Below, in pieces: positions 8,085 through 63,545 of a stretch of DNA of 64,000 nucleotides (positions within the stretch are counted from its first letter, which is position 1; each line of letters starts with the position of its first letter). Source of the stretch: Plumapathes pennacea (lineage: Eukaryota; Cnidaria; Anthozoa; Antipatharia; Myriopathidae); contig OZ038466.1 of assembly GCA_964036295.1 (NCBI GenBank), positions 25,189,997-25,253,996 of the forward strand. The letters are read 5' to 3'. The notes under the pieces were generated by a model that saw nothing but the letters and a program-made list of their open reading frames with translations, did not search any database and was not told the origin of the DNA. The translations under genes and the position numbers were made by a program.

Positions 8085-8335
8085 ACCTTTAAAAGCAAGC
8101 TAGTGACCTTGGAAACCCTCAGTCAAGCTAGGAAGTTCTCAATAGCGCGGGAGTTGTTGCGTTTCATTCTCCATTCCGAATTCAATTAAAATTTTGAACT
8201 ATTATTGAGTTTATTTATTTGATATGAAATATAAGGTGAAGATCGTTTCAACAAGCCCGGAAGTGGCACTGTCACGCGACGGGACCTGGTGATGAGGTCT
8301 CCCGGGCATCCGGTTTCCCGTCGTTCATAAACAAA

Positions 8336-34024: not shown

Positions 34025-34714
34025 CTATTGTTCACTTTGCTCTGTCACTTGTCCTGGCGCATGATTTGCCTGCTGCTGGCCGCCTTTTCCTTCTGTCACG
34101 GCGGCCGTACTCGCGTCTTCTTTCCACTTGTGCACTGACATTCCAGCCTTCTTCTTCGAGCAGAATACTTCTTCTTTCACAGAACCCGGTACCTGTGGGA
34201 CGTAGTTAGTGTATGTCATAGGACTGCATGTTGTCCAATTTGGAAATGATTGGATGAGAAAAATCCCGAGGACTGCCAAAATTTGACGATGCCGCGGGAC
34301 GAGTCTATTTTGGCAGTCGGGGGAACTTTTCGAATTAAATTATTTCCAAATTGGACAGTATGTAGTCCTACAATGTATGAGGTTTGGAGTGTACAATATA
34401 ATTATGGTTACCATGAGAGCTACATCAGTCGAACGTACGTTACACTATCTCGTGTCCTGAAAATAATTCTACTTTCGTACCGCAGTGGTTGTGAACCTCT
34501 CTCCGCCCTGCATGGGTCCCTTGTCAGGAGAATTGCAATTCTCCTGAAGACTTTCCATTTCAGCTCCTCTATTAGTAGGCAGTGGCTCTCTTCTCTCTAA
34601 ATATTTTCTCTCTAAATTTCTTAGGCGCTCTCGCTGCTCGTCTATTCGTTTTGACAACGCAAGCAGCGACGGGGGATTAGTATACTGAGTGGGTTTCTGG
34701 TTTTTTCTTGCCAT
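34025..34714 (-). CDS. Divergent relative of the tandem family, probable two-exon gene
   Basis: The first frame (34714-34469) starts MARKNQKPTQY. It contains PSLLALSKRIDEQRERLRNL, which parallels the tandem copies' VSLLEMSRRVDDRRARLRRL. In the ORF it stops after 81 residues. A donor at about 34483 would splice in phase to 34192-34025 (VPGSVKEEVFCSKKKAG...), ending TEQSEQ. The intervening sequence holds a palindromic element (34218-34374), which fits an intron. Function unknown; charged and probably helical. The splice is inferred. Confidence 0.45.
34218..34374. mobile_element. Palindromic MITE-like element
   Basis: Arms run from CATAGGACTGCATGTTGTCC inward and are mirrored by GGACAGTATGTAGTCCTA. 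The inner parts ATTTTGGCAGTCGGG and CCCGAGGACTGCCAAAAT also pair. Confidence 0.7.
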
Positions 34715-36724
34715 TTTCGTTTCTTGCTCAAGTGGTGAAAAGTAATTTAACCTGCAATTGATGTGGATAACTCAGCACCTAATGGCCAAATAATTGATCG
34801 CTAGCTCTTAAAAGGAGATTACCCTTTCGCTGGCAGTTAGTTGTAATTTAGAACTAATTAATTGTGGGAGGTTTTAATTAGTCACCTAAACCATGTTTCT
34901 GAATATCGTTACTAACAACTGTGTAATTTGAAGAATTCTTGTATTATCATTAGCGGAGTGAGTTTACGACCAATCGTTTTCTGTTCGTTTTTGGTCGTCC
35001 ACACTTTAAAAATGCTGGCAAAGTGTGGAAGGAAGAAAACGGAAAGGAAAGTTTTGGTTTTCAAAGAATTCTGGACTAGTGTGGTTACAATAGGTTAATT
35101 AAAAACGTCGGGTTAACTAATAACGATAATGAAACTAGTTCCATTTGAGAGTTCATCTGGCCGCTTTTTTTTTTTTTTCTTGTCAGTTCTTCTTGGAGAG
35201 AAAGGGATTACTGCGAAGTTCTGCAAAAGCTATGTTCATTGTGTATCATTCATGTGTATTTTAAATGAGAACTTTATGCAAAAGAAAATCATTTAAAAAT
35301 TAGTTATTTGTTTGCATTTTTCTTACGAGTTTCATTTTCTCTTTTTGGACATTTCATACTTACGGAAACTCTGTTCACAAAATCATGTTGCTCATCTTAT
35401 TCCCAGCCGCATTACCGATACCACCGGAATACGTTTTTCGGCCTTGTGGTCGACATCTTATTTTTGAGTCAGCGGCCATTGCAAAAATACTATGGATGCA
35501 AGTGAAGACTTTGTACTTTACCCAGATTTAGGAATCGATACTCGACTATAAATTAGTCCAGTGAATTCAAACATACATTGTGCACAAGAAAAACGGGGCT
35601 AATGCACACAAGAAAACCTTTACGAACGCTGACCAACGGTGGTGACGTCAAGTACCGTGTTTCCGGGATGTCGCCATTACCTTGTGAAGCGGGTCTAAAT
35701 TCAAACTTTCCATTCCGTTTCACGATAAATAACGAGTGTGATATATGTTTTGGGATGTGTGCAGGAAGATTCTTTATTATATACATACTGAGACATACTC
35801 ACGAAAAAGCCATATCGTAAAATTTCGTACGCAAATGAGTTCTAGCCAATGAGAGGCCGCGAACGACGCTTTTCACACGTGAAAAAAATCGTTCGTCCAA
35901 TCACAAGCTGCGAACGACGATTTTTCACTACTTTTAAAGGGTTTCCCGGTCCCATCATAAATGTCTCAGTATGTATATAATAAACAGAAAACATCATGGA
36001 AAGTGCTTTGTACAGTTTTTATTCACTCGTTGTTTCGTATCATAAAACTCACTCGCTCGCAAAGCCTCGCTCGTTCGTTTTATGATACTTCACAACTCGT
36101 GAATAAAAACCGTACGCGCGCACTTTCCATGAAGTAATCTCTATTTATTTGCTTCGTTTTCCTTACCCTAAGGAACGGTCGGCTAAATTTAAATGCACAA
36201 CGATTCTTCGATCACTGGAAACAATGGGTTAAACACTGCTAAAGAACTACCCTGGTTCCAGAGGTCCTTATATTGCTCCTTTAAGAGTTTTCCGACAATA
36301 ACGGCGGCGACGACGCGAGCAAAAAGGACCCCTGGGCTTGCGAGGTAGCAGCCTCACTTTCATCAGTTCACAATCTAAACGTTGTCGCTGATTTGTTAAT
36401 CGCCTCGTAACCATCGTAACTGAAAGCTACTTCGTTTTGATTGGCTCTTTCAAACCGGTTTTACTAGTTCTGTTTGACAAACAAATGGCGTGCGCGAAGA
36501 ACTGGAAGAGATAAATAATTTGGGCTTCGAACAACCCAGCCCAGATGTTTATATACTATCCTTATTTTAAAGCAACTTGCTTTTCCGTTCCTCTAGTTGG
36601 GGATTGCAAATCAATAATAACTTGAGTTCGATTAACAAAAAATAGGCACAAATACCGCCAACCCTTCCACAGGCGTTGGGTTATAACAGTTATAGTGTCG
36701 TTTTCTTTTTTCTTGATTGAATGT
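34715..36724. other. Intergenic stretch flanking the tandem array
   Basis: Contains a GAAAACGGAAAGG-type repeat near 34958-35090, a diverged array spacer near 35680-35780 and the composite MITE below. No supported gene. Confidence 0.5.
35774..36147. mobile_element. Composite MITE, copy 1 of a near-identical pair
   Basis: 374 bp, essentially the same as 50220-50593. It is two inverted-repeat modules side by side. The first is bounded by TATATACATACTGAGACAT and ATGTCTCAGTATGTATATA. The second is bounded by CATGGAAAGTGC and GCACTTTCCATG. CCAAT-box-like sequences are inside. It is non-coding. Confidence 0.85.
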
Positions 36725-38486: not shown

Positions 38487-39092
38487 TCAAAGTCTCTTTT
38501 TTAAAACACGAGCGGTCCTCCTGTTGCTGGCCGTTGGGTTCGTTGCTTCACAAATAGCCACTCGTCGAAATGCGGCAGTTGTTTGCGTGTTGTTCCGGTG
38601 TCCTCCGTTTCCCTGCTGATCTTGTAGTTGGATTTCTAGATCAATTTCTCTTACAATTCGCCTGTACTCCATGGTGTTTTTGTCCCAGGTCGAGCTGCTT
38701 GTTGTAGTTACGTGGAAAACCTGGTGTGTTGCTTCCCTTTCATGGCGAGTCACTACCTGCAATTGGTCTTGGCCGTTAACCTGTGTAACAACTGCGTTTC
38801 TCCTCCCTGGACGTGTCTCCTCTCTCGAAACGACACGCACACGAGCAAGCAGACTCTGGTCGCCGTTATGTCTCTCCAAACGTGGGCCATTCCCAGCAAT
38901 TCCATACTTTCTGTGTCGTTCTTGTTTATCTATGGGAGAAAAAGGACAGAACGGCGACTCTTCTTGGCTTTGGTTGCTAATGACTGGCCATCGGCTGTCG
39001 GCGTAGTCCTCCGCGAGACGTCTGAGCCTGGCCCGTCTGTCATCTACTCGCCTGCTCATTTCAAGAAGCGAAACCGGTTTCGAAAAAGACAT
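38487..39092 (-). CDS. Tandem family copy 1 (201 aa, unknown function)
   Basis: Intronless frame beginning MSFSKPVSLLEMSRRVDDRR and ending ARVLKKRL. It is charged, Arg/Gln rich and probably helical at about residues 8-35. The middle contains PRLERHNGDQ and RVRVVSREETRPGRR, the C-terminal half IVREIDLEIQLQDQQGNGGH. No signal peptide or membrane segment. No family recognised. An AATAAA signal on the coding strand lies about 150 bp past the stop (38333-38338). Upstream are a TATA-like TTATATAG, the GAAA-repeat element at 39197-39211 and an inverted CCAAT box near 39240. Four copies keep open frames with in-frame indels, which argues that the protein is used. Confidence 0.7.
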   Translation of the reverse strand: MSFSKPVSLLEMSRRVDDRRARLRRLAEDYADSRWPVISNQSQEESPFCPFSPIDKQERHRKYGIAGNGPRLERHNGDQSLLARVRVVSREETRPGRRNAVVTQVNGQDQLQVVTRHEREATHQVFHVTTTSSSTWDKNTMEYRRIVREIDLEIQLQDQQGNGGHRNNTQTTAAFRRVAICEATNPTASNRRTARVLKKRL

Positions 39093-39196
39093 ATTTAGTG
39101 TTACTTAACTGTTATGATCGTACTGGGTGAGTGATAATTCTCTCTTGGTCGAGCAGCACACGAATTGTGTAATTACTATATAAATTTGATGATAAT

Positions 39197-40099: not shown

Positions 40100-40708
40100 T
40101 CAAAGTCTCTTTTTTAAAACACGAGCGGTCCTCCTGTTGCTGGCCGTTGGGTCCGTTGCTTCACAAATAGCCACTCGTCGAAATGCGGCAGTTGTTTGCG
40201 TGTTGTTCCGGTGTCCTCCGTTTCCCTGCTGATCTTGTAGTTGGATTTCTAGATCAATTTCTCTTACAATTCGCCTGTACCCCATGGTGTTTTTGTCCCA
40301 GGTCGAGCTGCTTGTTGTAGTTACGTGGAAAACCTGGTGTGTTGCTTCCCTTTCATGGCGAGTCACTACCTGCAATTGGTCTTGGCCGTTAACCTGTGTA
40401 ACAACTGCGTTTCTCCTCCCTGGACGTGTCTCCTCTCTCGAAACGACACGCACACGAGCAAGCAGACCCTGGTCGCCGTTATGTCTTTCCAAACGTGGGC
40501 CATTCCCAGCAATTCCATACCTTTTGTGTCGTCGTTCTTGTTTATTTATGGGAGGCAAAGGACAGAACGGCGACTCTTCTTGGCTTTGGTTGTTAATGAC
40601 TGGCCATCGGCTGTCGGCGTAGTCCTCAGCGAGACGTTTGAGCCTGGCCCGTCTGTCATCTACTCGCCTGCTCATTTCAAGAAGCGAAACCGGTTTCGAA
40701 AAAGACAT
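40100..40708 (-). CDS. Tandem family copy 2 (202 aa)
   Basis: As copy 1, about 95% or more identical by eye. It has RRHKRYG where copy 1 has RHRKYG, an in-frame insertion of one codon. Keeps the WDKNTMGYRR segment. The TATA-like TTATATATTAA and the element at 40814-40828 lie upstream. Confidence 0.7.
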   Translation of the reverse strand: MSFSKPVSLLEMSRRVDDRRARLKRLAEDYADSRWPVINNQSQEESPFCPLPPINKQERRHKRYGIAGNGPRLERHNGDQGLLARVRVVSREETRPGRRNAVVTQVNGQDQLQVVTRHEREATHQVFHVTTTSSSTWDKNTMGYRRIVREIDLEIQLQDQQGNGGHRNNTQTTAAFRRVAICEATDPTASNRRTARVLKKRL

Positions 40709-40813
40709 ATTTAGTGTTACTTAACTGTTATGGTCGTACTGGGTGAGTGAATACTTCTCTCTTGGTCGAGCAGCACACGAATTGTGTGGTTAATATATAA
40801 GTGCGATGAAAAG

Positions 40814-41399: not shown

Positions 41400-42005
41400 T
41401 CAAAGTCTCTTTTTTAAAACACGAGCGGTCCGCCTGTAGCTGGCCGTTGGGTCCGTTGCTTCACAAATAGCCACTCGTCGAAATGCAACAGTTGTTTGCG
41501 TGTTGTTCCGGTGTCCTCCGTTTCCCTGCTGATCTTGTAGTTGGATTTCTAGATCAATTTCTCTTACAATTCGCCTCTGCTCCATGTTGTTTTTCCTGGT
41601 CGAGCTGCTTGTTGCGGTTACGTGGAAAACCTGGTGTGTTGCTTCCCTTTCATGTCGAGTCACTACCTGCAATTGGTCTTGGCCGTTAACCTGTGTAACT
41701 ACTGCGTTTCTCCTCCTTGAGCGTGTCTCCTCTCTCGAAACGACACGCACGCGAGCAAGCAGACCCTGGTCGCCGTTATGTCTCTCCAAGCGTGGGCCAT
41801 TCCCAGCAATTCCATACTTTCTGTGTCGTCGTTCATGTTTATCTATGGGAGGAAAGGGACAGAACGGCGACTCTTCTTGGCTTTGGTTGTTAATGACTGG
41901 CCATCGGCTGTCGGCGTAGTCCTCCGCGAGACGTCTGAGCCTGGCCCGTCTGTCATCTACTCGCCTGCTCATTTCAAGAAGCGAAACCGGTTTCGAAAAA
42001 GACAT
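41400..42005 (-). CDS. Tandem family copy 3 (201 aa)
   Basis: As copy 1, but with TATSSSTRKNNMEQRR in place of TTTSSSTWDKNTMEYRR and RSRR for RPGRR; changes are in frame. Copies 3 and 4 share these features and form a subgroup. The TATA-like sequence is weaker (TAAATAG). Confidence 0.7.
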   Translation of the reverse strand: MSFSKPVSLLEMSRRVDDRRARLRRLAEDYADSRWPVINNQSQEESPFCPFPPIDKHERRHRKYGIAGNGPRLERHNGDQGLLARVRVVSREETRSRRRNAVVTQVNGQDQLQVVTRHEREATHQVFHVTATSSSTRKNNMEQRRIVREIDLEIQLQDQQGNGGHRNNTQTTVAFRRVAICEATDPTASYRRTARVLKKRL

Positions 42006-42109
42006 ATTTAGTGTTACTTAACTGTTATGGTCGTACTGGGTAAGTGATAATTCTCTCTTGGTCGAGCAGCACACGAATCGTGTAATTACTATTTAGGTTT
42101 GATGATAAT

Positions 42110-43017: not shown

Positions 43018-43620
43018 TCAAAGTCTCTTTTTTAAAACACGAGCGGTCCTCCTGTTGCTGGCCGTTGGGTCCGTTGCTTCACAAACAGCCACTCGTCGAA
43101 ATGCGGCAGTTGCTTGCGTGTTGTTATAGTGTCCTCCGTTTCCCTGCTGATCTTGTAGTTGGATTTCTAGATCAATTTCTCTTACAATTCGCCTCTGCTC
43201 CATGGTGTTTTTCCTGGTCGAGCTGCTTGTTGCGGTTACGTGGAAAACCTGGTGTGTTGCTTCCCTTTCATGTCGAGTCACTACCTGCAATTGGTCTTGG
43301 CCGTTAACCTGTGTAACTACTGCGTTTCTCCTCCTTGAGCGTGTCTCCTCTCTCGAAACGACACGCACGCGAGCAAGCAGACCCTGGTCGCCGTTATGTT
43401 TCTCCAAACGTGGGCCATTCCCAGCAATTCCATACTTTCTGTGTCGTTCTTGTTTATCTATGGAATGCAAAGGACAGAACGGCGACTCTTCTTGGCTTTG
43501 GGTGTTAATGACTGGCCGTCGGCTGTCGGTGTATTCCTCCGCGAGACGTCTGAGCCTGGCCCGTCTGTCATTTACTCGCCTGCTCATTTCTTGAAGTGAA
43601 AGCGGTTTTGAAAAAGGCAT
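43018..43620 (-). CDS. Tandem family copy 4 (200 aa)
   Basis: Starts MPFSKPLSLQEMSRRVNDRR, so it is the most diverged of the four at the N-terminus. It ends in the same LKKRL. Its upstream region differs from copies 1-3: it has GGGATAGGGCGGAGTATATG and a CCAGTCAG box instead of the GAAA-repeat element. The same alternative upstream block occurs alone at about 37660-37800, next to the broken fifth copy. Confidence 0.68.
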   Translation of the reverse strand: MPFSKPLSLQEMSRRVNDRRARLRRLAEEYTDSRRPVINTQSQEESPFCPLHSIDKQERHRKYGIAGNGPRLEKHNGDQGLLARVRVVSREETRSRRRNAVVTQVNGQDQLQVVTRHEREATHQVFHVTATSSSTRKNTMEQRRIVREIDLEIQLQDQQGNGGHYNNTQATAAFRRVAVCEATDPTASNRRTARVLKKRL

Positions 43621-43929
43621 AGTTGTTTCTCTCGAGGTTACTAATCAGCACACGAAGCAACAGATGCTTGATAAACATCAAAATAAACTCGAGGTGGGAT
43701 AGGGCGGAGTATATGTGGCCAGTCAGCTCGGACCTGGAGCCCTTCAAGCCTGCGAGGCGAAAAAAATATTGTTTGCAAAACCAATCACAGGCTGTTTCAA
43801 CAGCGACCAATAAATAATCACGAAGGAATTATGTTACCTTTGTCTTACTTCTTGATTAATTTGAGAGCTAATTTCCGATTGAACAAAGCCTTGACTTCAT
43901 GGAAGTTGTTTGTCGGCTCGGTTTCACAC
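43621..43929. promoter_or_regulatory. Divergent intergenic promoter candidate
   Basis: About 310 bp lie between copy 4 (minus) and the small plus-strand ORF at 43930. The block is duplicated at about 37660-37970. Both copies contain a GGTTTCACA half-site, the core of the GAAA-repeat element, near the plus-strand end. Confidence 0.4.
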
Positions 43930-48164: not shown

Positions 48165-51100
48165 TTACAGGTACGCCAGCAGCACGATTTTGGGTTTCGT
48201 GCGAGGTAACTTCATGGACTTGTTTTGTGGGCCAAAAAAATTTGGCAAAACGTCCAGCGGATCACGGTCTTCTTGGTCCACTCCAGATGGCCTGCCATCC
48301 TGTCCTGGTGGTACACAATCAAGTTCGGTGGAGTGGTCATTGCACTCCTTTAACTCTTGAAAGCTCTGGGTTTCCGGCCCCAAATCTTTGCTAGCTGGCG
48401 TCTCGGGTATGAAACATAGGACTTTTTCGCAGAAGTACATCTGGTTTTCGAACATCGTTGGTCTATCGTATTGCGCTAAACGGCCATCAGCGCATTTACG
48501 TCGTTTCGTTTCGACTTGAGCATCATACTCAGCCACAGTGTCGTTATTCCCGGTTTTCGGTCTGCCTTGAAATTTCTTCACGAGACCTCCGTTTTCCGTT
48601 TGCTCTTCCTCCTCGGGCGTAGGTTCCTGACCACCGTGGCGCTTGATGATGTGCGAGTCAATTGTGTTTTCGTAAAGATGTCTGGGTAAGTCGTCTAGAG
48701 GCGGCACTTTTTGATCGACGGATCCGTCCTTCTTGTCCACTTCTTTCTTCCTTCCATTCTGAGCTTCACTGATCGTCGTGAGGTCAGAGCTGGGCATAAC
48801 TGGCGTGGAATAATAACCGCGATTTTCCAACATATCTTTTCGACTTTCGTTTGGCAGAGGAGAATAAAGTTCTACTTCAGTAAAGCTGCCAATCATCGAT
48901 ACGTCGGTGTGTGTGACAACCTCGTCATATATGACCACCTCTTCATTTGTCATACGTTCCTCAGACTTCCATTCGTCCTTCCCGGATTCGCTACGAACAT
49001 CCCCAGACGCTGTCACCGTCAAATTGCAATGGAGATTACCTGTCTGCATATCCGTCTCTTCTTTGTTACCACCTGCATTAACGTACATATGGAGCTTTGT
49101 GCGAGGGGCTGGTATGGGCTTATGCTGTGGGCCAGCGGTGTTAACGTAGTACCCGTCATGCTTAGTGGTCTCAAGGTGATGGTAAGCTGAATCGCTTGTA
49201 GCGGCGGCAAGCGACTTGTACGAGCTCTTGTCAAGTATTGTGACTCCGTATAGTTGAATGGTAGATCGACACCTGCGTCGCGTTGGAATTCTTGATTTCG
49301 TTTTTCTATGAAACCATTTCTTGCCACACTGGGAATACTCGTATCCCGACGCGTACTCCGACGGATCTTCGTATTCTTCTTCGTATTCCGCTTCCGACGT
49401 CCCACCGACATCATGTGAGGTTGGGTCCTGCTGCTCTAATACCTCTTCGTAAGGATCTTCGTCGAAATACGGTCTTGTGTAAGTATATGTGTGGTCTGAG
49501 AGGAACTCTCTCGAACACATCGAGCGAATCTTCTCCCCTGTAGGGTGGAGTTCGTCCGCGCGCACATGGATGGCTCCTTCCGGCTGCGTGACGTCAAGAT
49601 CCAGGATCATTGAGTCTTCAGCATGTTGTATTAACCAAACTTTCATCATCCAAGATTTCATTGGCTCACTGTAAGGAAAATGAACACAGGTAATTACTAT
49701 TTTCCTGTAAGCGGCATTGATGCCGGTTGGCGCAGCCAGGTTAAACTGCCGCAGGTGTGTTAGTGACAGCATTTTACGAATGTTAGTTGCTATCTTTTTT
49801 TCTTTCTTTTTGTGATAATAAGGTGGCCATTCTGTTGACACCGCGGAAATACGGCATTCTTGACGACACGTTCGTCGCAATTACTACTATTATTACTACA
49901 GTATGTAACTCGGTTAAACCGGAGGTAAAATTTCACCTCGTGTGCAAACCCCGTTTTTCTTGTGCGCAACTTATGTTATAGAAAATGCATTGAAATTACT
50001 TGTAGTTGAGTATCGAGTCCAAAAGCAGAGACAAAGAGAGTCACGGTAGCAGCGAGTAAGCCTGAATAAAGAGGTTATTACATGGGAAGGAGTGCAATAC
50101 GGCGAAGTATTTTTACGAGTCGGTTTTATTTTTTCGAGCCTGCTTCAGGCGAGAAAAAATAAAACTGACGAGTAAAAATACAGCCGTATTGCACGACTTT
50201 TCGTGTAATAAATTGTTTATTATTATATACATACTGAGACATACTCACGAAAAAGCCATATCGTAAAATTTCGTACGCAAATGAGTTCTAGCCAATGAGA
50301 GGCCGCGAACGACGCTTTTCACACGTGAAAAAAATCGTTCGTCCAATCACAAGCTGCGAACGACGATTTTTCACTACTTTTAAAGGGTTTCCCGGTCCCA
50401 TCATAAATGTCTCAGTATGTATATAATAAACAGAAAACATCATGGAAAGTGCTTTGTACAGTTTTTATTCACTCGTTGTTTCGTATCATAAAACTCACTC
50501 GCTCGCAAAGCCTCGCTCGTTCGTTTTATGATACTTCACAACTCGTGAATAAAAACCGTACGCGCGCACTTTCCATGAAGTAATCTCTATTTACACGACA
50601 AACGAGGCAGGGCAAACATTCTCGCCGCGCGCAAAATGGAACAAAAAAATGACGCGTTCGTAAACTTTGCTTGCGAAAACTGATCACGTAAGCTGATAAA
50701 CCAGTTGATCTGGTTCCTGACGAGTGCAATACGCTCCCATCTTTGCACTCGTTTTGGCCTGTATTTGCACTCAAAAATGTGAAGTCGTGTAATAAACTGT
50801 TTTCTTGGAGCTGCTTGGACGGACTGATTTACCTGCTCGTGAGACAGTCTGCGATTGCGATGAATGGCGGTCTCTGTAAGCGCTTGTATGGCCAACACTG
50901 GTGCATCACACAATACAACCAGGGAGGACAGTTCTCTGGCTGAGGAAGCCTCGCACCTTGGTCCAAATGGCTTAAAATCTACAAACCAGAAGCGAGAGTA
51001 CGTCAGTTGTTGCTTAACTCTTTAAGTCCTTCCAAAATATGTTTTTTTTCTTGCAATGATAAGGAGTATTAGAACATCATTGCTTGCCGGTAGACACAGT

Positions 51101-54100
51101 GGCTGATCCAAGTATAAACTCCCTCGTGACATTCCTGCTTTTTTGCCGAGTAGTGGAAAAAAAAAAGTAGTACAAAGAGCAGCTAAACAACGTGTCTCGA
51201 GTGGTACGGCCTAATACACTAAACTTTAGTGCGAAAAACTCCTTCCAGCTTCAATATGAGCCGGCTTTTGTACTAGATTTATGGAGAATTCTATTTTACA
51301 AGATCTGACAATTTAAGAAATTGAAATAAGAACCCAAAGAGGGCCAAAAGAACGATAATGTAAAACACACCTGGTCGTCTTCAATATCCATAAAAGGAAC
51401 TATCTGCGCGGTCCCAGGCCCACCGCCGAAAGTCGCGGCCGCTGCGAATGTTTCCCAGGCCAAGACTCCAAAGGCCCACACGTCACTCGCGTGCGAGAAA
51501 TGTTGATCCGTAATCACTTCCGGTGCGCTCCTGAAATGAAGCAGATGCAAGGAAAAGTCTTTTTTTTTTTTTTTTTTTTTTACTAAATTTCTTGCATATC
51601 ACTGATCGAGAATTTCATTGACGATTTACGAAAAGGTTCAAATTAATTCCTCTAGTTCCCTCTAGCAAAAATGTGACATTGGTATATATGATTTCGTTTC
51701 GGCCTAATGCTAAAACGCTATAAAGTCGATACCGTGAGACTAATCAAGGACTTTCGCTCGAATAAACACATTTGTGTTTTGGTCTAAGCAGCTATAACTT
51801 ACTGAAAGTTATACAGTAGTAGTAGCTGTTTTTTGTTTTTGTTTTTGTTTGTTTTTCCTGAACTACTGCTGAAGTCATTTAGAAATTCTTGTTGTTCGTA
51901 AGTTCGCTGTACCAACTAAAGGAAATTTTGTGTTCTTCGATAAACTTTCCGCTTAAATACTTCTGATTGAATTGTAACAAGCTCTCGCAAGGACTGTTTT
52001 GGTGTAACAATGGCATCGAAAGAAAAAGAACAACAAAAAGAGATTATGTTCTTACAGGGTGGCCCGAAGGATCTTGCAAAGAATTATAAAGGATATCTTC
52101 TTTCTTCTTCTTTTTCCATTAAAACTCATGTGATATAAGATAAGGTATCCTGCCCATGAACACACATGCAGCTACAGTAAATTCTTGGGCATGCATTCAA
52201 TTGTTACTAATGTTTCGCCTATTAAAACTCACCATCGCAATGCATCGCTGTACAAGGGACATTTGGCCGTTTGGTATACAGGTGACAGGTCATACAAAGG
52301 TTCATCATATGTGGATGAATAAAGATCATCTGGTTCGGTGAGGCGCGGGACACTGCCACGGTAAGAGCGACCAAACCGGGACACTTTCACCTTCGAAAAA
52401 TTGTACACGGTTTGTGACTGAAAACATTTCAGGCTGGGGATCTGGGCCCCCACTCAGTTGAGCCTCTGACTCGTCCCCATTCGTCCCTCCTCTTATATGC
52501 CCTTGGTCATTTCTCCTTCCCGTCACTCCCCGTGAGCCCCCGCAAGAATAAAAGAGAAGAATGGGGACGAGTCAGGTTGAGCCTGGGGTAGGGGTATTTA
52601 GCCCGAAGTCGACTCGACGAAACATTGAGACCTTTTTCTAGCTATTTTCTAACTAGACGTGATGTGACGGGAGATAAGTTCGGAGTACTCTGGCCCCAGA
52701 GGTTTCCTCGCTCTCTGTGGGCCGCGGGGAGCATTTGACCTGAGTATCATGCTTTTTCCGGGGAGTTTTAATAGGCCGGGGGGAAATTGCCAGCGCCAAG
52801 GCTCTCATCAGGTTGGCGCGCCCGCACTACTGATCAGCAGCGTCGAGCTCGTGCCCAGGGCCTTCGCATTACGTGTCAGTTTAGCTTCAGGCGGCAAGTC
52901 AGGTAAGTCAGTTGGGCTTTGTAGTTCTTTTTTCTGTTTTTAAGAGTACTTGCATTATTCATAAATTTGGAATGTCCTCTTGCAACTGCGTACATGTGAA
53001 AGTTTTGGTCGCGTCAGGTGCATGCAGCTCAGGAGTTCTGGGATACCGGTTTTCTCTGTTTCAAAACAAACTCCAGTGCGTCCAATCCTTCTTATGAAAA
53101 TTAATTTTCGTTTTCATGCAAATCAAACTCATTTTCATAAGAAAAGTTTCACACTAGGCCTCGGTTTCAAACAGAGGAAACAGGCATTTATCTTATTCTG
53201 TAATCCTTGTATTGTTTAAGGTCCCTGATAATGCTCTTCCCCATTTTAGGGTCAGGAATTTCTACCGTCAAGACTATTTAATAGACTTACCTCCATGTGG
53301 CTTGTCACAGCAATGTTTTCAGCTCTCAGGTCTCCATGAACAATGTTACTGTGATGCAGGTATTCCATGGCAGATGCCACTTGAGAAAGATACCTGATCA
53401 AGTCAGTGTTAGAACATCTGGTTTTCAGGACATAGTCTTTTAAGTTGCCCATTGATGGTGCTGCTGAGATCTACAGTGAAAGATATTGAATTTTAGTCAA
53501 AATGATGGGAACAGTTCTCAAGGGTGTTTACCATGTCTGATATGAACTATAATTTTAAAATTTTAGGTATCATAAGAAAGGCTGGACTGGGGAAAATCTA
53601 TTGGTTGAAGAATATGAAAGATATGTTTTTTAGTTTGAAATAATACTTCAGGGCCTGACGAGGTCCATGTCCATTTTCTGTTGTCCACCCCAAAGTGTAA
53701 GATATAGTATACTGTATTTGTAATATTAGAACCCTTGTGGTGAGAGAATAACCAGCTGAAGGGATAGAGCTCTTACCACTTGGATTCTGGAACCTGATTG
53801 GCTGATTTCCAGCACTTTACAAAGGTAGTCATTATCCAGTTTACACAGTTCTTGTAGATGCTGCAGTTGAGTGTTTCCTCTATACACAATGGACTCTACT
53901 GCCACAGGGCCCTGCCAAATTGACAATAACATTACATTGCTTATTGCTAAATATTTATGCATTTTACTGACTAAGCTTATAACCTTAATTTACTCTTTGA
54001 CTGACACATTTTTTGCCTGCTGTAGCTGTGTGACCCTCATACACTGGATGTGTATACGAGTCCAGGCACGCATGAAAGGTCTGCTAACGGAAAAAGATAA

Positions 54101-57100
54101 AAGACTGTGCCTGAAGTACGCACAAGACATGGTTCCATTTTGGTAGGCTGGTTGAGAGGGAGGAGGGAGGGAGAAGAGCTGTATATACTATATTATCTTA
54201 TACACAATAATTATTATTACCCTCTTCCAACAGCTGGCTGACATAGGGTGATCTGATGTAAGACTGACTGGCAGTTCCCCAAACTTTCCAGAGGCTACTC
54301 CAGGCTCAAAAAGTATGGGATAGAACTGTGGAAGTATTTTAGAGTTATTTAGACTTATGGGTTTATGGAGTACACATGCAAACATGTGTAGACAAAAACC
54401 AGCAATGGTAAGAGGCAGTTACAAACACAACAACAAAACCAGCAACAACAAGATGATGAGCACAACAGTTAGATGTGTAGAGATTAGTAGCACCTCCACA
54501 TATACCTGTCCAGTACATTATACTGATTACGTTGATCAAATTTTCACTATTTGTTTAATGATATTTTAGAGCCATCTCTTTTGCTGGATTTAAGGTGTTT
54601 CCAAAAGATGATTGGCTTTTTCTTTTTTCCTTTTTTTTTTGTGCAGGCAGGGGGGGGGGGGGGGGGGGGGGGCTTTATCTGAAATTAACACAAACATTAT
54701 TTCATGGTTGGCTTTGTGCAGTTTGTGAATTTGAAAAGGTGTCACATCTTTCTGTTTTGCAGGCTGCTGATGTGACATCAGCCTGGCATTCATAATATCC
54801 AAATACCTACTATGCCTTATGTGCATATATTATCAACCATCAAGAAATCTCCAAGGGCAGTCAATACACAACAAAGCTAAAGGTAAGAGCAATCCAATGT
54901 ACTAGTGTATTATTTTAATGGTATCCTGTTTTCAGGGCAAAACTCTCCTTCAAGTTGGGAAAATATTTGTAAAGTATGACATGAATTTCTCATGTATCAT
55001 ATTAGCTGAGCATTTACTTACTGAATTGCTGGTTATTGTGGCATTTTTCAGTGGGGGTAGACTTGAAAGTGGTTTGGCGTTTTTACCTAAACCAAAAATT
55101 ACTGTTAAATCAACAATAAAGAAATACAAACACATGGGACATAAACAAACATGAATCAGTGCCACTAAAATGATAATGTTCATGTGCATATGGGGATTTC
55201 CAATACAAAGACAAATGTGGCATTGGCCAAGCTGTGTGGTCTTAGGCTTTTACTCCTGTGAATTGTCAATCAGGAGCTGGAATGCTCACTAGAAAATAAT
55301 ACAACATGCAGTTTGGATGAAACTTGGGTTTTGACAGACTTGCTTAGATATGGCTTCACTTGTATACATGTAATGATTGCTATGGATCATATTAGTTTTA
55401 TCTTACCGGAAACCATGTTTTCTTCTTGGATCTCTTGAAGTTTACATGTTATGGTCTCAAGGTCTGGTCTCTTGTTTCTGTCCATAACCCAGCAAGACTC
55501 CATTAAATCATAGATGGAATCTTGAAAGCCAACCTCTTTGGGTGGATGTCCCCCTTTGCTTACCTGAAAGAAGAGTGGGTGCCCAAGGAAAGTTGAGCTT
55601 CGTGTGAATTAGTTCTAAAAGACAAAATACATAAAGTTGAAAATTTGATTTTATGCATCCTTGAGAAACTGAGGTCGATAATTTGTGAGCGGTTTCCACC
55701 GACTTTTGAAAACCGAAACCTGGAATTAATTACAGCGCCAGTTTTAACCATCTGAAAGCGAAAAGTAATTTGCAGCTTGTTATACGTGAAAATATTGCAA
55801 TCCGGATTCACTTTTGCTCGTGGTTGGTCAAATCGAATAGTCTAAAAAGCGCAGCAAAACCAAAACAGTGTCACAGGAAAAGTCAAAAACCATTCTAACT
55901 TACGTAATCAATGACATCTTGATCACAATCCAGAGATCTGCATTCTCTTGTCCGTGCATAAGGCTCACAGCCAAACGTGAAGATCTCGTACATGGTTACA
56001 GCGAGTGCCCATACATCAGATGCTGTGGAGAAATGGAGCGGAGGCTGCAAACATTCTGGGGCGGCCCAACGCACTGCTATGCCCTCCGTGTCTCGAGAAA
56101 CAAACTCGTGCGTCTCTTCTACGCTGCAATACGAATATGTGCCATCGGTATCCTCGTGTGGTTTTAGAGGGCGTGCAAAATCCAGTGAAGTTAACTTGCA
56201 TGTGAAGTCTTTGCCAACCAGAACGTTTCGAGCCATGACTGAACGATGGACAATATTATGCCTCTTCAAGTGAAGCAGCGCCGCTGTGATGTCGATGCAC
56301 ATTTGGAGGAGGCGGTCAATCGACATTGACAGCGACTCTTCATCTCGCATACCCCTCAGGACGTCAAGGAGGTTTCCTCTCGCCTCGAGGTCAGTGATGA
56401 TGTGGTAGGGAAGTCGTTCCGTGTCGTATGCCAGCAAACTCGGGATGTTTGCATGAGGGCTGAGCTGGCGGAGGTTGAATGCTTCTATGATGAAATTCTG
56501 GTGACGCTCTTTAACTTTGTTATCGTCCGCGGCTTCTTTGGTTGTGGGCCTGAGAATCTTCACTGAAGCTTCGCGCCCGCGAAAGACACCAGCAATGATC
56601 ACGGAAGAATCGCTTTTCCTTTGAGACTTCGTGTTTTGAAATTCTAATGCCTGATTTTTATGATACCAGCCCAAGAACTCCTCCAAGACGTGGCAAGGAA
56701 TGTGCTCTCGGTCATGCCAGTAGAGCTTGTAGACAACGCCCTTTCTTGTGATCGAGTCAGGACTGAACACGATTCTGGACGCATGGTACTCTAGAATCAT
56801 TCGTGATGCCTGAGTCTTCTTTATTTCTTGGATGCTGAGGAGCTGGATCATACAGTAACCGGCTTCTGTTCGGATTGCTGCCAAAAAGGAATTGTGAACT
56901 GTTATAGCCAAAAAAATTAAAGGGAAAATTATAAACTACTTGTTACTCTCATATTTCATACTGTGTATTTTCTAAAAAAGTTCGTACATGTCCAGTTTTC
57001 TCCTTCACAACTTTCCAGTTTTATATATTATATATATTTTTGACATCTTGTTTGTCTTTTAGGATATTTTCGCATTGTGCATCTCGAGAGATCAGAGACC

Positions 57101-59556
57101 TATTATTGTTCAGAACTATCTCGCAGCTCGGGTGTTCCCGCTGTGAACAGCATTAGTTTAAAGACGGACAGCAGCAGTCAAATGGATGTCAAATTGGACT
57201 GGGCTGCTGCTAACCTTTCTTTCCACTTGTCATCGCCATGTCTGTCAAGATGGTGGACATCAGGAGGAAAAACTTCCAGTCTTCTCGCACATCTTTTTTA
57301 AATTCGCTACCTTTGAATAGATGTGCTTCCTGTACACGGCGTATTGCCTTTATGGCTTGTTTAGGGTTTTGGATCGCCTGCAAAGAAATTAAAATCGATT
57401 AAAACCAAAGTGGAAAAAAGGAAGCACAACTGGGAACTAAGGCCAGAACAATTTCTACAAAATCTAGGATGGAAAGAACGAGAAGGGACAAGACACAAAA
57501 CACAAGGCAGACTGAAACAAGAAAAGACCAGAATCCTGAATTGGCCATTTCTGAGTTCCCTGATTGTGACAATTTCTTCGTAGACGTGTTTAAACTAAGG
57601 TTTCTTCCTCAATATTTTTCAGTATTTGAAATATTCGTTTAGAAACAACTTTACCTGATTGTGAATGTAGAGCAAGAGCAGATGTAGATCGAACCAGTTC
57701 ATCTTGGCCTGGCTAATCCTGCGAAGAAAGCCAATTTCCTGGAAATCTTTCGCGTTTGGGTTTGTTATCCTTTCGCATTCGTCCAAAAAGACTTTGTTCC
57801 TTATGCCGCTCTTTTTCTTGTTGAGAATGCGACCGATGGCCTCTTGAATAAACTCGGCAGAGTAGCGTAACTGACCTTTCTTTCTGTACGCTGTAGCCCC
57901 GGCAAGCCTCGTTAGCTTGTCAACGACCACACCAAGTTCCTTCAAATCTTCGTCGGCGATAGTCTCTCGAAGTAAGTACTCCTGCTCCATGTAGATCACC
58001 ATAAGAGCAAGTACGCGACTGTAGACCGTCAGACGGTTCATTTGTTGCTGTGGCCCGGCGTCGGTAAAGACACTGTTTGATTGAATTAAAGGGTCTCGCA
58101 GGATTTTTTCGACTCTCCTTATTTGGGCATTGCAGCTTTTGGTATTCCCCTTGCAGATGAGGTGTAACAGCAGTTGTTGTGCGTGTTTTATGACTGTCGG
58201 GCTGTCTGTGCATTTGCAGCTCAGCTTGGCGAGGATCACGTACGTCTCAATGGCTCTGAAGTCGTCTTTGAGGCAGGACTCTTCCAGGAGTGGCAGAATT
58301 TCTTGTAGGAGTAACTGTTCTTGATCGTCCCGTGCGTCTGCTGTTAGTTTGGAGAAGCTTTGTAGGAAAGTGTCCACGTCTTTGAAGAATTCACCCACCC
58401 GGCCGCTCCTTTTGGGATCTAAAATAACAATCACCATTGTCAAAATTGTGATCACCACCACCACCACCATCCCATCATCATCATCAATCATCGCTATCAT
58501 TGTAAAGGCAAAGTAAAAAAAGTAATTTATTTGTTTAACGATGTAGTTCCGTCAGTTCTGTTACTGTATCAATGAAAGATCATTAATCGCCATCATCATC
58601 GCCACCGCAATGGAGGTGGTAATGGTAATGAAATCATAGTGATGGTATTCTTCATCTACTCGGATGTCTGATTGTTTCTTCAGCTCTTTCCGGGTTTATT
58701 ACCTTTCTTGGCTGCAGCTGTGATCACCCTTCCTGGTTCTGGATTCCATAATTTCTCAGTGTGGAAGGGAACTTTTCCCCGCGTTACACAGTATCCGGGG
58801 CCGATGTTGGTTGGTTGGAACGCGTTATGACTTGCTTCGCTCAAGGTTTCCTCTTCATTCTCATTTCCTTCAACGCGACAACAAAGAAAACGAGGCAGTT
58901 AGCAGAATACAACTGTAGCTTTTGTACCCTTTCACTCCCAAGAGTGAATTTGATCAACTTCAAATTTCTCTTTTCATTTTCTCACTAGAAATATATCACA
59001 TGGTGAGGTAAACTTGATCAAACTACCAACTCTCACAACAGCACTCATACATTTTCTAAGTTGTTGGGAGAATTTGTATTCTGAGCGAGTGAGTGAAAGA
59101 GAAAGAGCATTACGACCATGTCGATGCTCAGGCCGAGCCCTAGTTAGAATGAATCCTAATTATTTTGTCCCCTGTGTTCGGATTTCAAGTTCTTTGGCTC
59201 GTCCAGTAGTCTGCTCAGGCCGAGCCCTAGTTAGAATGAATCCTAATTATTTTGTCCCCTCTGTTCGGATTTCAAGTTCTTTGGCTCGTCCAGTAGTCTA
59301 AGTGTTGATAGTTGTAATATTTTTTTGGTTGTAGAATATGCTTTTCCGAGCAAGAAAACGACTGACCAGACAAAGAAAATAAACAAACAAACAAACAAAC
59401 AGGACAAGACACACACAGAGCAAGACACACACAGGACAAGACACACACAGGTGAGTTAGTCACATCTGTTACCTGGTTGGTTGATTATAGTAGTCCCCTC
59501 TCCCACGATGATGTGGCCTCTACCCGACTGACGGACATTCACAATTCTAGGTCTGT
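48165..59556 (-). CDS. Dual tyrosine-kinase-like pseudokinase with Tyr-rich tail (5' end not found)
   Basis: Fourteen minus-strand exons, all junctions in phase: 59556-59473, 58867-58703, 58418-57655, 57377-57215, 56898-55904, 55563-55407, 55086-55022, 54325-54221, 53911-53777, 53470-53291, 52417-52233, 51530-51371, 50978-50833, 49668-48165. They give about 1,601 residues. Residues ~85-390 look helical. Kinase-like domain 1 (~495-776) has ASVK but IVHRSVMARN (Asp missing) and SLDFARP, then RWAAPE and CWVMDRNKRP. Domain 2 (~800-1100) has VAVE (Lys missing), IVHGDLRAEN and VSRFGR (DFG Asp missing), then RWSAPE and CWPYKRLQRPPF. The ~500-residue tail is rich in YxN and YEEV-type sites plus PIPAPR. 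No membrane segment or SH2 seen. The layout recalls JAK, but I see no FERM domain. Probably a signalling scaffold (inference). The start codon lies upstream, unidentified. Confidence 0.8.
50075..50211. mobile_element. Palindromic MITE
   Basis: TTATTACATGGGAAGGAGTG and ..GCACGACTTTTCGTGTAATAA form the ends. Inside, GTGCAATACGGC and GCCGTATTGCAC pair. It lies in the last intron of the pseudokinase gene, directly left of the composite MITE. Confidence 0.8.
50220..50593. mobile_element. Composite MITE, copy 2 of the near-identical pair
   Basis: Same length (374 bp) and almost the same sequence as 35774-36147. It is in the last intron of the pseudokinase gene. Confidence 0.88.
53100..53175. repeat. 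Dispersed repeat segment
   Basis: ATGCAAATCAAACTCATTTTC and GTTTCAAACAG recur, inverted, at about 59715-59775. Both lie within or near the pseudokinase gene. Confidence 0.55.
54648..54673. repeat. Poly(G) run
   Basis: Long G run in an intron of the pseudokinase gene. The length is probably unreliable. Confidence 0.9.
58926..59100. mobile_element. MITE of the TTAACCCTTT family, intronic copy
   Basis: Left end ACCCTTTCACTCCCAAGAGTG matches the copy at 21147; the right end is degenerate. It lies between the first two identified exons of the pseudokinase gene. Confidence 0.65.
59125..59298. repeat. 86-bp tandem duplication
   Basis: Two nearly identical units start TGCTCAGGCCGAGCCC at 59125 and 59211, differing by about one base. 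A short ACACACAGGACAAGAC tandem repeat follows at about 59398-59450. Confidence 0.93.
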
Positions 59557-60493
59557 CTATAGTGAAGAAGATGAGAACGCTGTCAATTGATTACTTTGTT
59601 TAGCAACAACAATGACAACAAGACCACACTGTCAAGTTGTGGTACCCTTTGAAACACGAAAAGGAAGGGCGTTGCTGGGAGGACATTTTTGAGATGTCTG
59701 TTGCGTCTGTTTCAAACGGAGCCCTATTGCGATTTCTTTCTTATGAAAATGAGTGCGATTTGCATGAAAATGAACAACTACTTCACTAAAAAAAACTGTT
59801 TCAAGCCATTTCTGAGCGTTTTTCTCAGGGTTCCCATGCTTATCTTTGTATTTAAGTTTTGCATGAGTCATTCGATCTATCTCTCGTTTTGTTTAGTTAT
59901 TTGTTTCCGTCTTTGTTATGACCTTTAACCTTTCTATTCTTTTCTTTTTTACTAATGAAATAACATGACAAACAGGGATGATTTTTGAAGAACTTCATAA
60001 GAACGCGTAGCCATAGTAATGGTGTGGTTGAACACTTCCTGGTTCTTGATAGTAGACACAAGTGTCGAGCAGCAGACAACTGATCGGCCAAGCTCTATCA
60101 AGTCTTTAGCAACCACTCTTGTTCAATTCCATTTGTTACGAGAACTTATTTGGAACTGATTTTGTGTTAAGTAAATGTTGACGTGGATTTGTTGATGCCG
60201 ACTGGACTTTTATCAGAGTGAAAGAAACATTTCTCGAGGCTTCACAGTGGGGGCTAACTGCGTCTTATATTTCCATGGTTACTTTTCAGTGCAAGTCTGT
60301 AAAAAGGCGGTCTGCAGGGGAATCCCTTTCGCTTCTAAAAATATAGAAACACTAATGCGATTGGTATGCCGGCCATTTTTATTTAAATCTTTTGCGACAT
60401 CGATTTCTGCAAGAGTTCTGATTCAGTGATTTCGATTGATTTCTACCGGAGCTCAGTTTAACCAGTGTTTGTTGTTCAAGGAATACTGCGATT

Positions 60494-60684
60494 TAGTATA
60501 TACCACACAAGTGAATAGTGCTTTTCGCGTGCTCTGATTGGCTTCTCAATCTCGGAATATCAAGTGCTATTCACCTCCCGGCGGCTTCCGGTAAAACAAA
60601 ATGGCGCGCGAACCCAATTTTTGCCCACTTTCGTCGGAAATAAAATAGCTATTTGGGAGTTGGCTATTAAACTTGCGTGGTATT
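60494..60684. mobile_element. MITE with TAGTATATACCACACAAG ends, copy 1
   Basis: Begins TAGTATATACCACACAAG. Its interior (AATGGCGCGCGAACCCAATT) matches, in reverse, the copy at 62846-63038. The right end is degenerate. Confidence 0.75.
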
Positions 60685-62737
60685 CGCCTCAGTGTCGGTG
60701 AATAATTATTAACTAATGCTGTTTCGTAGTGCCGGTATTGGGCATATATGTTGCGGGAAGTTTTGTTTGCGTTGTTTCACGATATGTTACTTTCGTTTGT
60801 CGACGTGGCCTCGCTCAATTTGCATCCCTTACGATCACAACCGGTCGTGTTTAACGGATTACATTTCGAACAGAAAATATACAAATCGCGGGTGTACTTC
60901 GTTCAAGACTGAAAATTTGCTTGCATGACACTAGTGTATAAAATATCCGGTGCTTATTTATGTATCGGAATTTGAGTAACTGCACTTCCGCATCTGTTTT
61001 CTATACGCAAATCAACATGCTGTACAGTTCTACGAGTAACTGTTTCTTTTCTTTTTGTTTTGACTCGCTGGGCCATCCAAAGCTGACTTCTGTATCGCAA
61101 ATGCGCAAGAAAATCGAGTTAGTGGTCGGATGATACTGGAACTATTTATATCGTTTGTGTTGCGGCACTTGAAATCTCTGAGCTTGTTTGCAATTGGGTT
61201 ATCATGGACGCACGGCGGCCAGATAAGTTAACTTAACACTGTGCTAATCATTCGAATAACAACATCAGAACGGAGACAATATGTAATAACTCTTGTGATC
61301 AGACGATCTTTGTACTGATTCACCTGTTGCTTGCGGTTCTTCTCTGCTTGGTTCGTCTGAAGCCATTTGGGTTTCGTGCAACCCGCTTTAGCTGGCTGTT
61401 AGCTGCAAATGTTCTCGCCTAAAGAGTCTGTGAACAACTGATTGGCTTTCTTTATGTTTCAGCACCGAATTCCATGGAAACAAATACGGGAAAGCCCCCG
61501 GAAGTGACGAGGTTTACCCAAACTTGTCTGAATGTTCATTTGCCGCTGTGGACGGCCCAGCCATGACTATCAAAACTTACACGGACATAGAAGTATTCCA
61601 AACTCAATATTTTCATCGTTGAGGTAGTACTTTTCTTTTTAAATGACGTTCTGTACTTTAAAAGTGCTTAAAGGAACTCAATGATGTATTTTGTACAAAC
61701 AGGAAGTTAATACGATTGGATGCCTAATCTATTTTTCCTCATTGTTTCAAGAGCGCTTCGCAACAGTTTCTTGTCGTGCCCTTCTGTTATCTTGTGCTGA
61801 CTCGTGCTGGCCAATTGAATTCGCGCTTTGCAGGTCGTTTGTAGTTTTGATGTACTAAACTTCAAAATTTCCAATCCAGCATGGAACAGTGGATAAATTT
61901 TGCAGGCTATAAATAATACATTCGCGTGAGCGATATAGCCTTCAACCAAATATAACTTCACATTCTATTGTGCAACGTTTAAATATCGAACAGAGACCAC
62001 AATTTATCACCGTAAACACTCCTATTGCAAGTTTGGGTCGCGTAGTTGTAATGTATTGCGCCGGCCGAATGGTTGGTGGGGTTTTTCCGGTTTTGCAGGA
62101 ATGAGTTATTCCTGTTTCTATTTCATTTGTGGTTTTCAAATTTACTTTATTACAAACACCGAGTTCACACAAACAAACAGCCAGTTCTTGTGTGTCGGGA
62201 AAACGTGTTGAGCTGTTGCAAGTCTCGCTCTCACAGCTTTTGCTAACTTTACAGAAGAAAATTCATTCCTTTATTCATACTATTGCTTCTTTTCACATTC
62301 TTCCAATTCCAATTCTCGTTTTTACTGTTCGCGATGATGGCCACGTTTTTGTGGGTCAGCTTTATCTGAGAGTATATTTTATTACATTTTACCTACTGTT
62401 TCACGTTTGTTTGTTCTACTGTCCTCACGCAAACACGACGCAGCGAGAGCATTTGACGTTATAGTTAAGCGCTCTCTTTGTAGCACAAGAACTAGTGTTG
62501 ACTTGTGCTTCGTCTTAATCGGGTTAGCAATGAAAAAATGATTGGAAAGTTATTGATGTGTACCAAATGCTTTGAGATAATTGCTTTTGGTGACGTTTTG
62601 AACGCCCGTCAGAGCAAAAAGGGGCCGGAGACCTGTGAAAGAACTAATGCTGGAAACGGCAACATTCTTTACGTAGTTTAACCCTTTCACTCCCAAGTCA
62701 ATTGCAATGTTCTCTTTAGGTTTTTCACAAGATATTT

Positions 62738-62844
62738 AACAATTATTCGCCGAAGTGAAGGTGAATAGCGGTGGATATTTACCGAGCCGTTTCGACGAGG
62801 TAAATATCCACCGCTATTCACCTCCACTTCGGCGAATAATTGTT
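62738..62844. repeat. Near-perfect palindrome, arms about 45 bp
   Basis: The AACAATTATTCGCCGAAGTG arm is mirrored by CACTTCGGCGAATAATTGTT with one mismatch inside. The centre is around 62791. Confidence 0.9.
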
Positions 62845-62845
62845 T

Positions 62846-63038
62846 TAGTATATACCACACAAGTTAATAGCCAATTCCCAAATAGCTATTTTATTTCCGA
62901 CAAAAGTGGGCAAAAATTGGGTTCGCGCGCCATTTTGTTTTACAAAGCCACCGGGAGGTGAATAGTACTTGAAATTCCGAGATTGAGGAGCCAATCAGAG
63001 CGCGCGAAAAGCACTATTCACTTGTGTGGTATATACTA
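62846..63038. mobile_element. MITE with TAGTATATACCACACAAG ends, copy 2 (nested)
   Basis: Ends TAGTATATACCACACAAG and CTTGTGTGGTATATACTA are perfect inverted repeats. It sits inside an older MITE. Confidence 0.88.
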
Positions 63039-63256
63039 AACAGCATTATACGGAAGAGAAGACCTGGTTTTTGATGGCGTTCTCAGTTTCTCTCCACATC
63101 ACTCATACATATTCTTCTGGATTTGTTGAGAGAATCTGCATTTTGAACTTGGAAGTAAAGGGTTTAATACATCATTGAGACAATCTATGTTTTTGTAGCC
63201 TTGCTTGTAGTACGATATTGCTACACTCTTGTGCAGCTCCCTTTGTTATGCATCTG

Positions 63257-63545
63257 CTACAGCTTTGTATTATACACGTCTGTTGCTGTTGTGTCCGGAA
63301 TTATATCATAGATGCGTTCTTCTGGCACGTACGACAAACAAGAGGCTTGGTTTACGTAGATATAGTAGTGGTTTTCGAGGAATTCTCTCGAGCACATTAT
63401 GCTGATGTTGTCTTCCATGGGGTGCAGTTCATCCGGTAGCACATGGCTCGCACCCTCGGGCTGTCTCACTGCAGTGTCCAGGCTCACGGAACTCTCCTCG
63501 TGATGATTCAGCCAAACACGCATCATCCAAGAGCTCATTGGCTGC
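63257..63545 (-). CDS. Last exon of a second dual-pseudokinase paralogue
   Basis: The acceptor at 63546 and the reading phase are the same as in the last exon of the gene at 48165-59556. The start aligns: QPMSSWMMRVWLNHHEES against EPMKSWMMKVWLIQHAED, then DELHPMEDNISIMCSREFL against DELHPTGEKIRSMCSREFL. The tail stops after 95 residues (ending TDVYNTKL) instead of 500, still with several Tyr sites (NHYYIYVNQ). Upstream exons lie past the right edge. It is a tandem duplicate with a truncated tail. Confidence 0.75.

Follow-up and report, generated by a model that had tools for sequence, protein, structure and literature searches.

The gene analysed here encodes a protein in which a predicted ARM/HEAT-like helical domain is followed by two tandem tyrosine-kinase-like domains (K1 and K2), each missing part of its catalytic residues, a conserved 60-residue module and a long tail rich in tyrosines; we propose, with a probability of about 0.6, that it acts as a non-catalytic scaffold that would be phosphorylated in trans and would dock SH2 proteins. 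The gene lies on the minus strand of the window, by which we mean the whole analysed stretch of 64,000 nucleotides (25189997-25253996 of contig C5, in a genome of 290 Mb). By sequence similarity, it belongs to an undescribed protein family whose relatives are found here in stony corals.

Rebuilt from the raw sequence, 14 minus-strand exons between 48165 and 59556 give a single frame of 1,594 residues, with GT donors and AG acceptors throughout, agreeing phases at 13 of 13 joins and a closing stop codon at 48165-48167. The rebuilt model thus agrees with an earlier note on this DNA, which had described fourteen phase-matched exons forming one protein, and both ends of the interval are exon borders. 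For each candidate peptide, the surrounding open frame was matched to splice sites and the resulting exons were joined, giving the following features, the first of which stands outside the count of 14:

61324..61366, minus strand: tentative first coding exon (MASDEPSREEPQAT) with a phase-1 donor; sole ATG-plus-donor candidate over the donor threshold in 59557-63300
59473..59556, minus strand: exon A, an 84-base frame-preserving cassette with the motif GHIIVG (splice sites and phase; 75-base counterpart in the paralogue)
58703..58867, minus strand: exon B, N-terminal linker (splice sites, phase; paralogue counterpart)
57655..58418, minus strand: exon C, bulk of the predicted ARM/HEAT-like helical domain, residues 83-337 (AlphaFold2, fold comparison)
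57215..57377, minus strand: exon D, further part of the helical domain (donor 57215 by homology to the relative P0001 and the paralogue)
55904..56877, minus strand: exon E, end of the helical domain and most of pseudokinase 1 (PF07714, E 9.5e-34), with Lys retained, HRD changed to HRS and DFG to DFA (motif table)
55407..55563, minus strand: exon F, end of pseudokinase 1 (PF07714, E 3.2e-5; phase)
55022..55086, minus strand: exon X, short linker between the pseudokinases; start alternatively 55101 or 55164; the least certain exon
54221..54325, minus strand: exon G, degenerate glycine-loop region of pseudokinase 2 (splice sites, phase; paralogue counterpart)
53777..53911, minus strand: exon H, N-lobe of pseudokinase 2, VAIK changed to VAVE (splice sites; motif table)
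53291..53470, minus strand: exon I, pseudokinase 2 with the HGDLRAEN loop (Pfam, E 1.8e-11; 73% identity to the paralogue)
52233..52417, minus strand: exon J, pseudokinase 2, DFG changed to RFG (splice sites; motif table)
51371..51530, minus strand: exon K, pseudokinase 2 with SAPE and DVWAFG (Pfam, E 8.8e-10)
50833..50978, minus strand: exon L, end of pseudokinase 2 (frame set by phase and homology)
48165..49668, minus strand: exon M, post-kinase module (EPMKSWMM...MCSREF), tyrosine-rich tail and stop (genome matches; tail motif statistics)

The model is complete apart from its start: the first exon listed is unproven and the start codon is not called with confidence, the candidate being abundant in acidic residues and Ser as at the starts of the coral homologues. 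Exon X was inserted because the strong donor of exon F is in phase 1 and exon G starts in phase 0. The gap between F and G holds six open phase-2-to-0 candidates, three of them with the same strong donor at 55022, and the shortest of these three (55086-55022) was picked because the paralogue carries a 59-base proline-rich exon there; exon X and its paralogue counterpart, chosen partly by phase, have the least independent evidence. Direct joining of F to G (donor 55414) was dropped after comparison with P0001 and the paralogue. Donor 57311 of exon D was likewise dropped in favour of 57215, the matching stretch being present in P0001 (DWRFCLQMASILSEIAM vs DWKFFLLMSTILTDMAM), as was exon L in the frame of the open-reading-frame list, which fitted neither neighbouring phase. 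It is hardly credible that two adjacent genes, or wrongly joined exons, lie behind the model: exon X and the start exon do lean on phase and weak evidence, but several corals have proteins that carry both kinase-like domains together with the post-kinase module, the contig of one relative is too short for introns, and the paralogue repeats the structure. Because of this repetition and of the 13 homologous proteins found, chance is excluded as the source of the structure, and this is a real animal gene.

Elsewhere in the window, exons of a TFIIF alpha subunit gene (4692-8081, plus strand; Pfam) are directly followed by an exon of a C9orf72-like gene (8240-8830, plus strand). RRM-protein exons and then glutamine-rich open frames occupy 21463-25366 (plus strand), and a 443-residue open frame at 31532-32860 (plus strand) contains ankyrin repeats. 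Four very similar open frames of about 205 residues (MSFSKPVSLLEMSRRVDDRRARL... and variants) form an array on the minus strand (38490-39104, 40103-40720, 41403-42017 and 43021-43644), with a diverged relative near 34472-34771; one of the four frames, tested against Pfam, gave no match. Upstream of the window gene, similar sequence in opposite orientation is seen by eye near 60500-60650 and 62850-63040, perhaps a short mobile element.

With the first 81 residues of exon M as query, the genome yields two matches, the window gene and the next upstream gene on the same strand, a tandem paralogue; exon C as query finds both of these plus a divergent copy in two pieces on contig C12:

63257..63545, minus strand: final exon of the tandem paralogue (58% identical to residues 2-66 of the 81-residue module query)
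C12 9536164-9542439, plus strand: third family copy (L017/L018), with the helical domain and one kinase-like domain

The paralogue, which like the motif of exon A goes unmentioned in the earlier note, extends beyond the window, reaching at least C5 25261188. Its exons are recovered by tblastn in the same order as those of the window gene; once assembled, it too comprises 14 exons, agrees in the incoming phases and encodes 1,157 residues with a short tail. The two genes share 49% amino-acid identity over 1,121 aligned codons, and dN/dS is about 0.24 overall, 0.18 in K1 and 0.25 in K2, rough figures given a dS of 1.8, near saturation; the ratios indicate that the tandem copies are under purifying selection. 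In the C12 copy HRD reads HRK and DFG reads GFG (the last exon piece being assigned by eye), and tblastn gave no match to a second kinase-like domain in the 19.5 kb searched. This copy may be a one-kinase form predating the gain of the second domain, or one that has lost it.

Relatives were found by protein searches. With a first model of 1,538 residues as query, a search that scored only the 7,987 candidates sharing most words returned six proteins, P0001 being the sole whole-length relative (E 1.1e-144, 29% identity). Residues 100-450 of P0001 in turn retrieved 13 proteins from 3,472 candidates: P0001 itself, three from Stylophora, three from Oculina, one from Desmophyllum and five Montipora rows. 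These relatives (Stylophora pistillata LOC111322652; Oculina patagonica ACROYT_G043148/G043149 and LOC144638109; Montipora foliosa and Montipora capricornis; Desmophyllum pertusum) are annotated as 'uncharacterized', 'hypothetical' or, once, in Desmophyllum, 'ptk6'. The 1,551-residue frame of P0001 runs uninterrupted along a contig of 4,875 bases that has 38 member sequences; for a family with 14 exons, the simplest reading is a spliced transcript. The coral proteins are 30-35% identical to the window gene product and have in common with it the domain order, the post-kinase module and the catalytic losses, which makes them homologues; at this level of identity the window species is probably a further anthozoan. 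Both kinase-like domains occur in all 12 homologues aligned (the thirteenth, P0009, a third Stylophora isoform, was omitted), P0012 from Desmophyllum lacking much of K2 as annotated, and Oculina has a tandem pair of its own, judging by the adjacent locus tags G043148 and G043149. A third protein search, with the whole alignment as query, was crowded out by other kinases and failed to recover even P0001, so that absence outside stony corals is weakly tested; the restriction to stony corals, the window species apart, reflects one region search that found nothing else. Sub-threshold Pfam matches were also seen in P0011 (ORC-CDC6-like, E 0.0049; THP2, E 0.32) and P0010 (MLVIN_C, E 0.38).

That the protein carries tandem tyrosine-kinase-like domains, as had been claimed, is borne out by an HMM search in which PF07714 (PK_Tyr_Ser-Thr) matches the first model in three stretches at E 3.3e-83, above the curated cut-off, and P0001, P0010 and P0011 in two stretches each. 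The state of their catalytic residues was read from an alignment of 14 rows (window gene, paralogue and 12 homologues), not all independent, P0007 and P0008 being isoforms of one gene. In K1, the VAIK lysine is kept in 14 of 14 rows and the HRD aspartate is lost in every one (replaced by S, T, A, V or C). At the DFG site of this domain, the window gene has DFA, its paralogue DSA, and the homologues HS- or QY-type sequences. In K2, where P0012 lacks the segment, the catalytic loop is HGD in 8 of 13 rows and HGA in the other five, all Montipora, and DFG has become R-[FLM]-[GE], with loss of the aspartate, in 13 of 13; K2 of the window gene has VAVE for VAIK, a glutamate taking the place of the lysine, and RFG for DFG. 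Neither domain unites the VAIK lysine, the HRD aspartate and the DFG aspartate of a competent kinase, and both are probably without catalytic activity, in keeping with the earlier dual-pseudokinase reading. Weak or unusual activity is nevertheless conceivable from the motifs, since the K1 of window gene and paralogue retains, besides its lysine, the DF(A)/DS(A) aspartate. One domain, or both jointly, might then transfer phosphate by an altered route, an idea favoured by the complementary pattern of a universal lysine in K1 and a loop aspartate in most K2 rows. We nonetheless consider an active or atypical kinase unlikely: the loop aspartate of K2 is an alanine in five of five Montipora rows, its DFG aspartate is lost throughout, and we know of no precedent for catalytic residues shared across two separate domains, which we count against it.

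Both domains are old. A quick tree of 37 rows, from which the near-copies P0007 and P0018 were removed and in which long branches, among them the C12 copy, were flagged, gathers K1 (13 rows, including the C12 copy) and K2 (11 rows) into one group apiece, both with an SH-aLRT of 100, so both domains predate the divergence from the corals. In K1 the two genes of the tandem pair fall together (98), apart from the corals; in K2 they stand at an open fork, again apart from the coral group.

The arrangement calls to mind the Janus kinases, in which a pseudokinase and a second tyrosine-kinase-like domain follow FERM-SH2 in tandem. The same order of the two domains would be expected of a Janus kinase that has diverged, or of a protein that descends from one and has shed FERM, SH2 and JH1 activity, and K2 (from P0013) does match JAK2 kinase-domain chains at 86-87 bits. 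However, the solved-structure ranking, over the best 60 rows for each domain, does not single out JAK: IGF1R (90.9 bits) and ACK1 (87.3 bits) match K2 as well as JAK2 does, and K1 (from P0012) is nearest to ABL (up to 102.9 bits) and Eph chains. The EGFR entry 9p9u, which tops both lists, was set aside as the nearest structure to K2, as it has two kinase copies per chain, each at 68.1 bits against K2. Unlike a Janus kinase, the window gene product has a helical domain in the place of FERM-SH2 and a long tyrosine-rich tail, and its second domain, which in a JAK would be the active JH1, is also without the DFG aspartate and the VAIK lysine. Pfam found no FERM or SH2 match at E <= 10 in the first model or at E <= 1 in P0001, P0010 and P0011. 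On these FERM/SH2 and second-domain tests membership of the JAKs was rejected, as the earlier note had anticipated, and a JAK origin is highly improbable.

The N-terminal domain itself (exon C, residues 83-337) is predicted by AlphaFold2 to consist of helices without strands (mean pLDDT 80.2, pTM 0.83), and its best matches in a fold comparison are of ARM/HEAT type, FERM, SH2 and death folds being absent from the fold-search matches listed. A helical N-terminus had been proposed before; the putative repeat-like fold is new to the present model. The kinase parts of an AlphaFold model of P0012 are poor and of low confidence. At the other end of the protein, 501 residues follow K2, as the approximately 500-residue tail of the earlier note requires, and the 437 that lie past the module include 22 tyrosines (5.0%, against 3.3% in the body). 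The window gene tail contains 11 SH2-type contexts (YxN, YxxM, YxxP, Yxx[VIL]) against 5.9 in shuffles (p = 0.014), so that calling it 'phosphotyrosine-type' holds in a statistical sense only. Such motifs exceed shuffles at p < 0.02 in nine of the 12 long-tail rows (the exceptions being P0007, P0008 and P0016), and acidic residues preceding tail tyrosines do so at p < 0.05 in just two of the 12. The long tail is not universal, because the paralogue has 32 residues past the module and P0012 has 31, both outside the motif tests.

How might such a protein work? The putative ARM/HEAT-like domain would bind a partner, the tandem pseudokinases could serve as docking or conformational modules, K1 perhaps still binding nucleotide, and active tyrosine kinases would phosphorylate the tail in trans, allowing it to recruit SH2 proteins. 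A cytoplasmic location is probable because no 19-residue stretch is hydrophobic enough for a usual membrane helix (highest mean hydropathy 1.26, in a model without the true N-terminus). A scaffold would account for kinase-like domains that appear conserved under purifying selection despite the loss of catalytic residues, and this selection, together with retention in several stony corals, implies that the protein does something these animals need. A different use of the same parts is suggested by some plant tandem kinase proteins, for which a decoy or sensor role has been proposed: the pseudokinases could mimic kinases targeted by microbes or symbionts, and the protein would detect the interference. 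The tandem kinase-like layout and the separate tandem pairs of the window species and Oculina are compatible with this, but duplication by itself is weak evidence and a comparison of the tandem copies reveals no rapid evolution of the kinase-like domains (dN/dS 0.18 and 0.25), which leaves a decoy an improbable reading. For the scaffold, the recurrent tandem duplication fits a role in immunity, stress or symbiosis, a guess from the duplication history.

A further element is the frame-preserving exon A, whose V-x-[VI]-G-type motif may control self-assembly. Skipping this exon keeps the frame because its length is a multiple of three (84 bases, or 75 in the paralogue), and of the Stylophora isoforms P0007 and P0008 one carries its equivalent and the other lacks it. 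The motif reads G-H-I-I-V-G in the window gene and G-S-V-F-I-G-D-N in the paralogue; the pattern G-x-[VIF]-x-[VI]-G occurs once each in 6 of 15 family proteins, only within the first 53 residues of chains of 1,090-1,670 residues, and a looser G-x-[VIFTA]-x-[VI]-[GA] in 8 of 15, neither form being found in the five Montipora rows and two Stylophora isoforms. When the first 100 residues are shuffled, the strict motif turns up in 0.4-3% of the shuffles and the loose one in 2-8%, figures to be read knowing that the pattern was picked after viewing the sequences and that related sequences are not independent. RHIM cores have the form G-[IV]-Q-[IV]-G (PMC7885112), and the cRHIMs of mosquito PGRP-LE and IMD read VHIG, the glutamine occurring in PGRP-LC only (PMC9531809). 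The family motif shares with these a hydrophobic-x-hydrophobic-Gly tetrad whose conserved places are taken by V/I and G (PMC7885112, PMC9531809, PMC12119088), and the glutamine can be absent in cRHIMs too (PMC9531809); it differs in that its tetrad stands one residue further from the first Gly, and in lacking the glutamine. At E <= 10, three family motifs had no Pfam match, and a profile built from eight such motifs retrieved no PDB chain. Run over the genome, the RHIM model PF12721 hit two sub-threshold places, neither at the window gene, and single motif sequences searched against the genome returned the two query places themselves and nothing more. With no Pfam score and no Q in the tetrad, RHIM membership was rejected, and we keep a partial resemblance, by pattern, to RHIM/cRHIM amyloid cores. 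It is a doubtful idea that this splice-removable RHIM-like exon nucleates amyloid-type assembly of the scaffold, joining N-terminal clustering to phosphotyrosine-tail docking in a necrosome-like hub of the coral lineage. Should tail phosphorylation or N-terminal assembly prove true, the family would open a way into phosphotyrosine signalling, and possibly amyloid signalling too, in the immunity or stress responses of cnidarians.

Set against known systems, the novelty would lie in a new architecture of known parts, one without description in the open-licence papers among the matches listed, as far as their extracts go. The earlier claim that no described protein has this layout stands to the same extent. 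The protein is not alone, relatives existing in coral protein sets. The open-licence literature searched yielded no papers on tandem pseudokinases in cnidarians and none naming the Stylophora locus LOC111322652. Few animal proteins carry two kinase domains, and to our knowledge none with two conserved pseudokinases behind a helical domain has been described. Plant tandem kinase proteins are not known to have an ARM-like domain or a tyrosine tail. Their likeness to the present protein is the tandem kinase-like layout, found for example in the kinase-pseudokinase disease-resistance protein Yr15 of wheat (PMC6170490). RIPK1 homologues are reported not to have been found in cnidarians (PMC12119088). 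The family is also separated from RIPK1 and RIPK3, which have an active kinase at the N-terminus and a RHIM at the C-terminus, with a death domain in RIPK1: its kinase-like domains lack catalytic residues and are placed after a helical domain, and Pfam gave no death-fold or RHIM match in the first model, the family motifs or three homologues. The closest likeness in proposed working is to ErbB3 and PEAK1/Pragmin, scaffolds in which a single pseudokinase is combined with tyrosine motifs that dock SH2 proteins; they differ in having one pseudokinase and no ARM-like domain, and ErbB3 is a receptor, whereas the window gene would place two pseudokinases between a helical domain and an SH2-docking tail.
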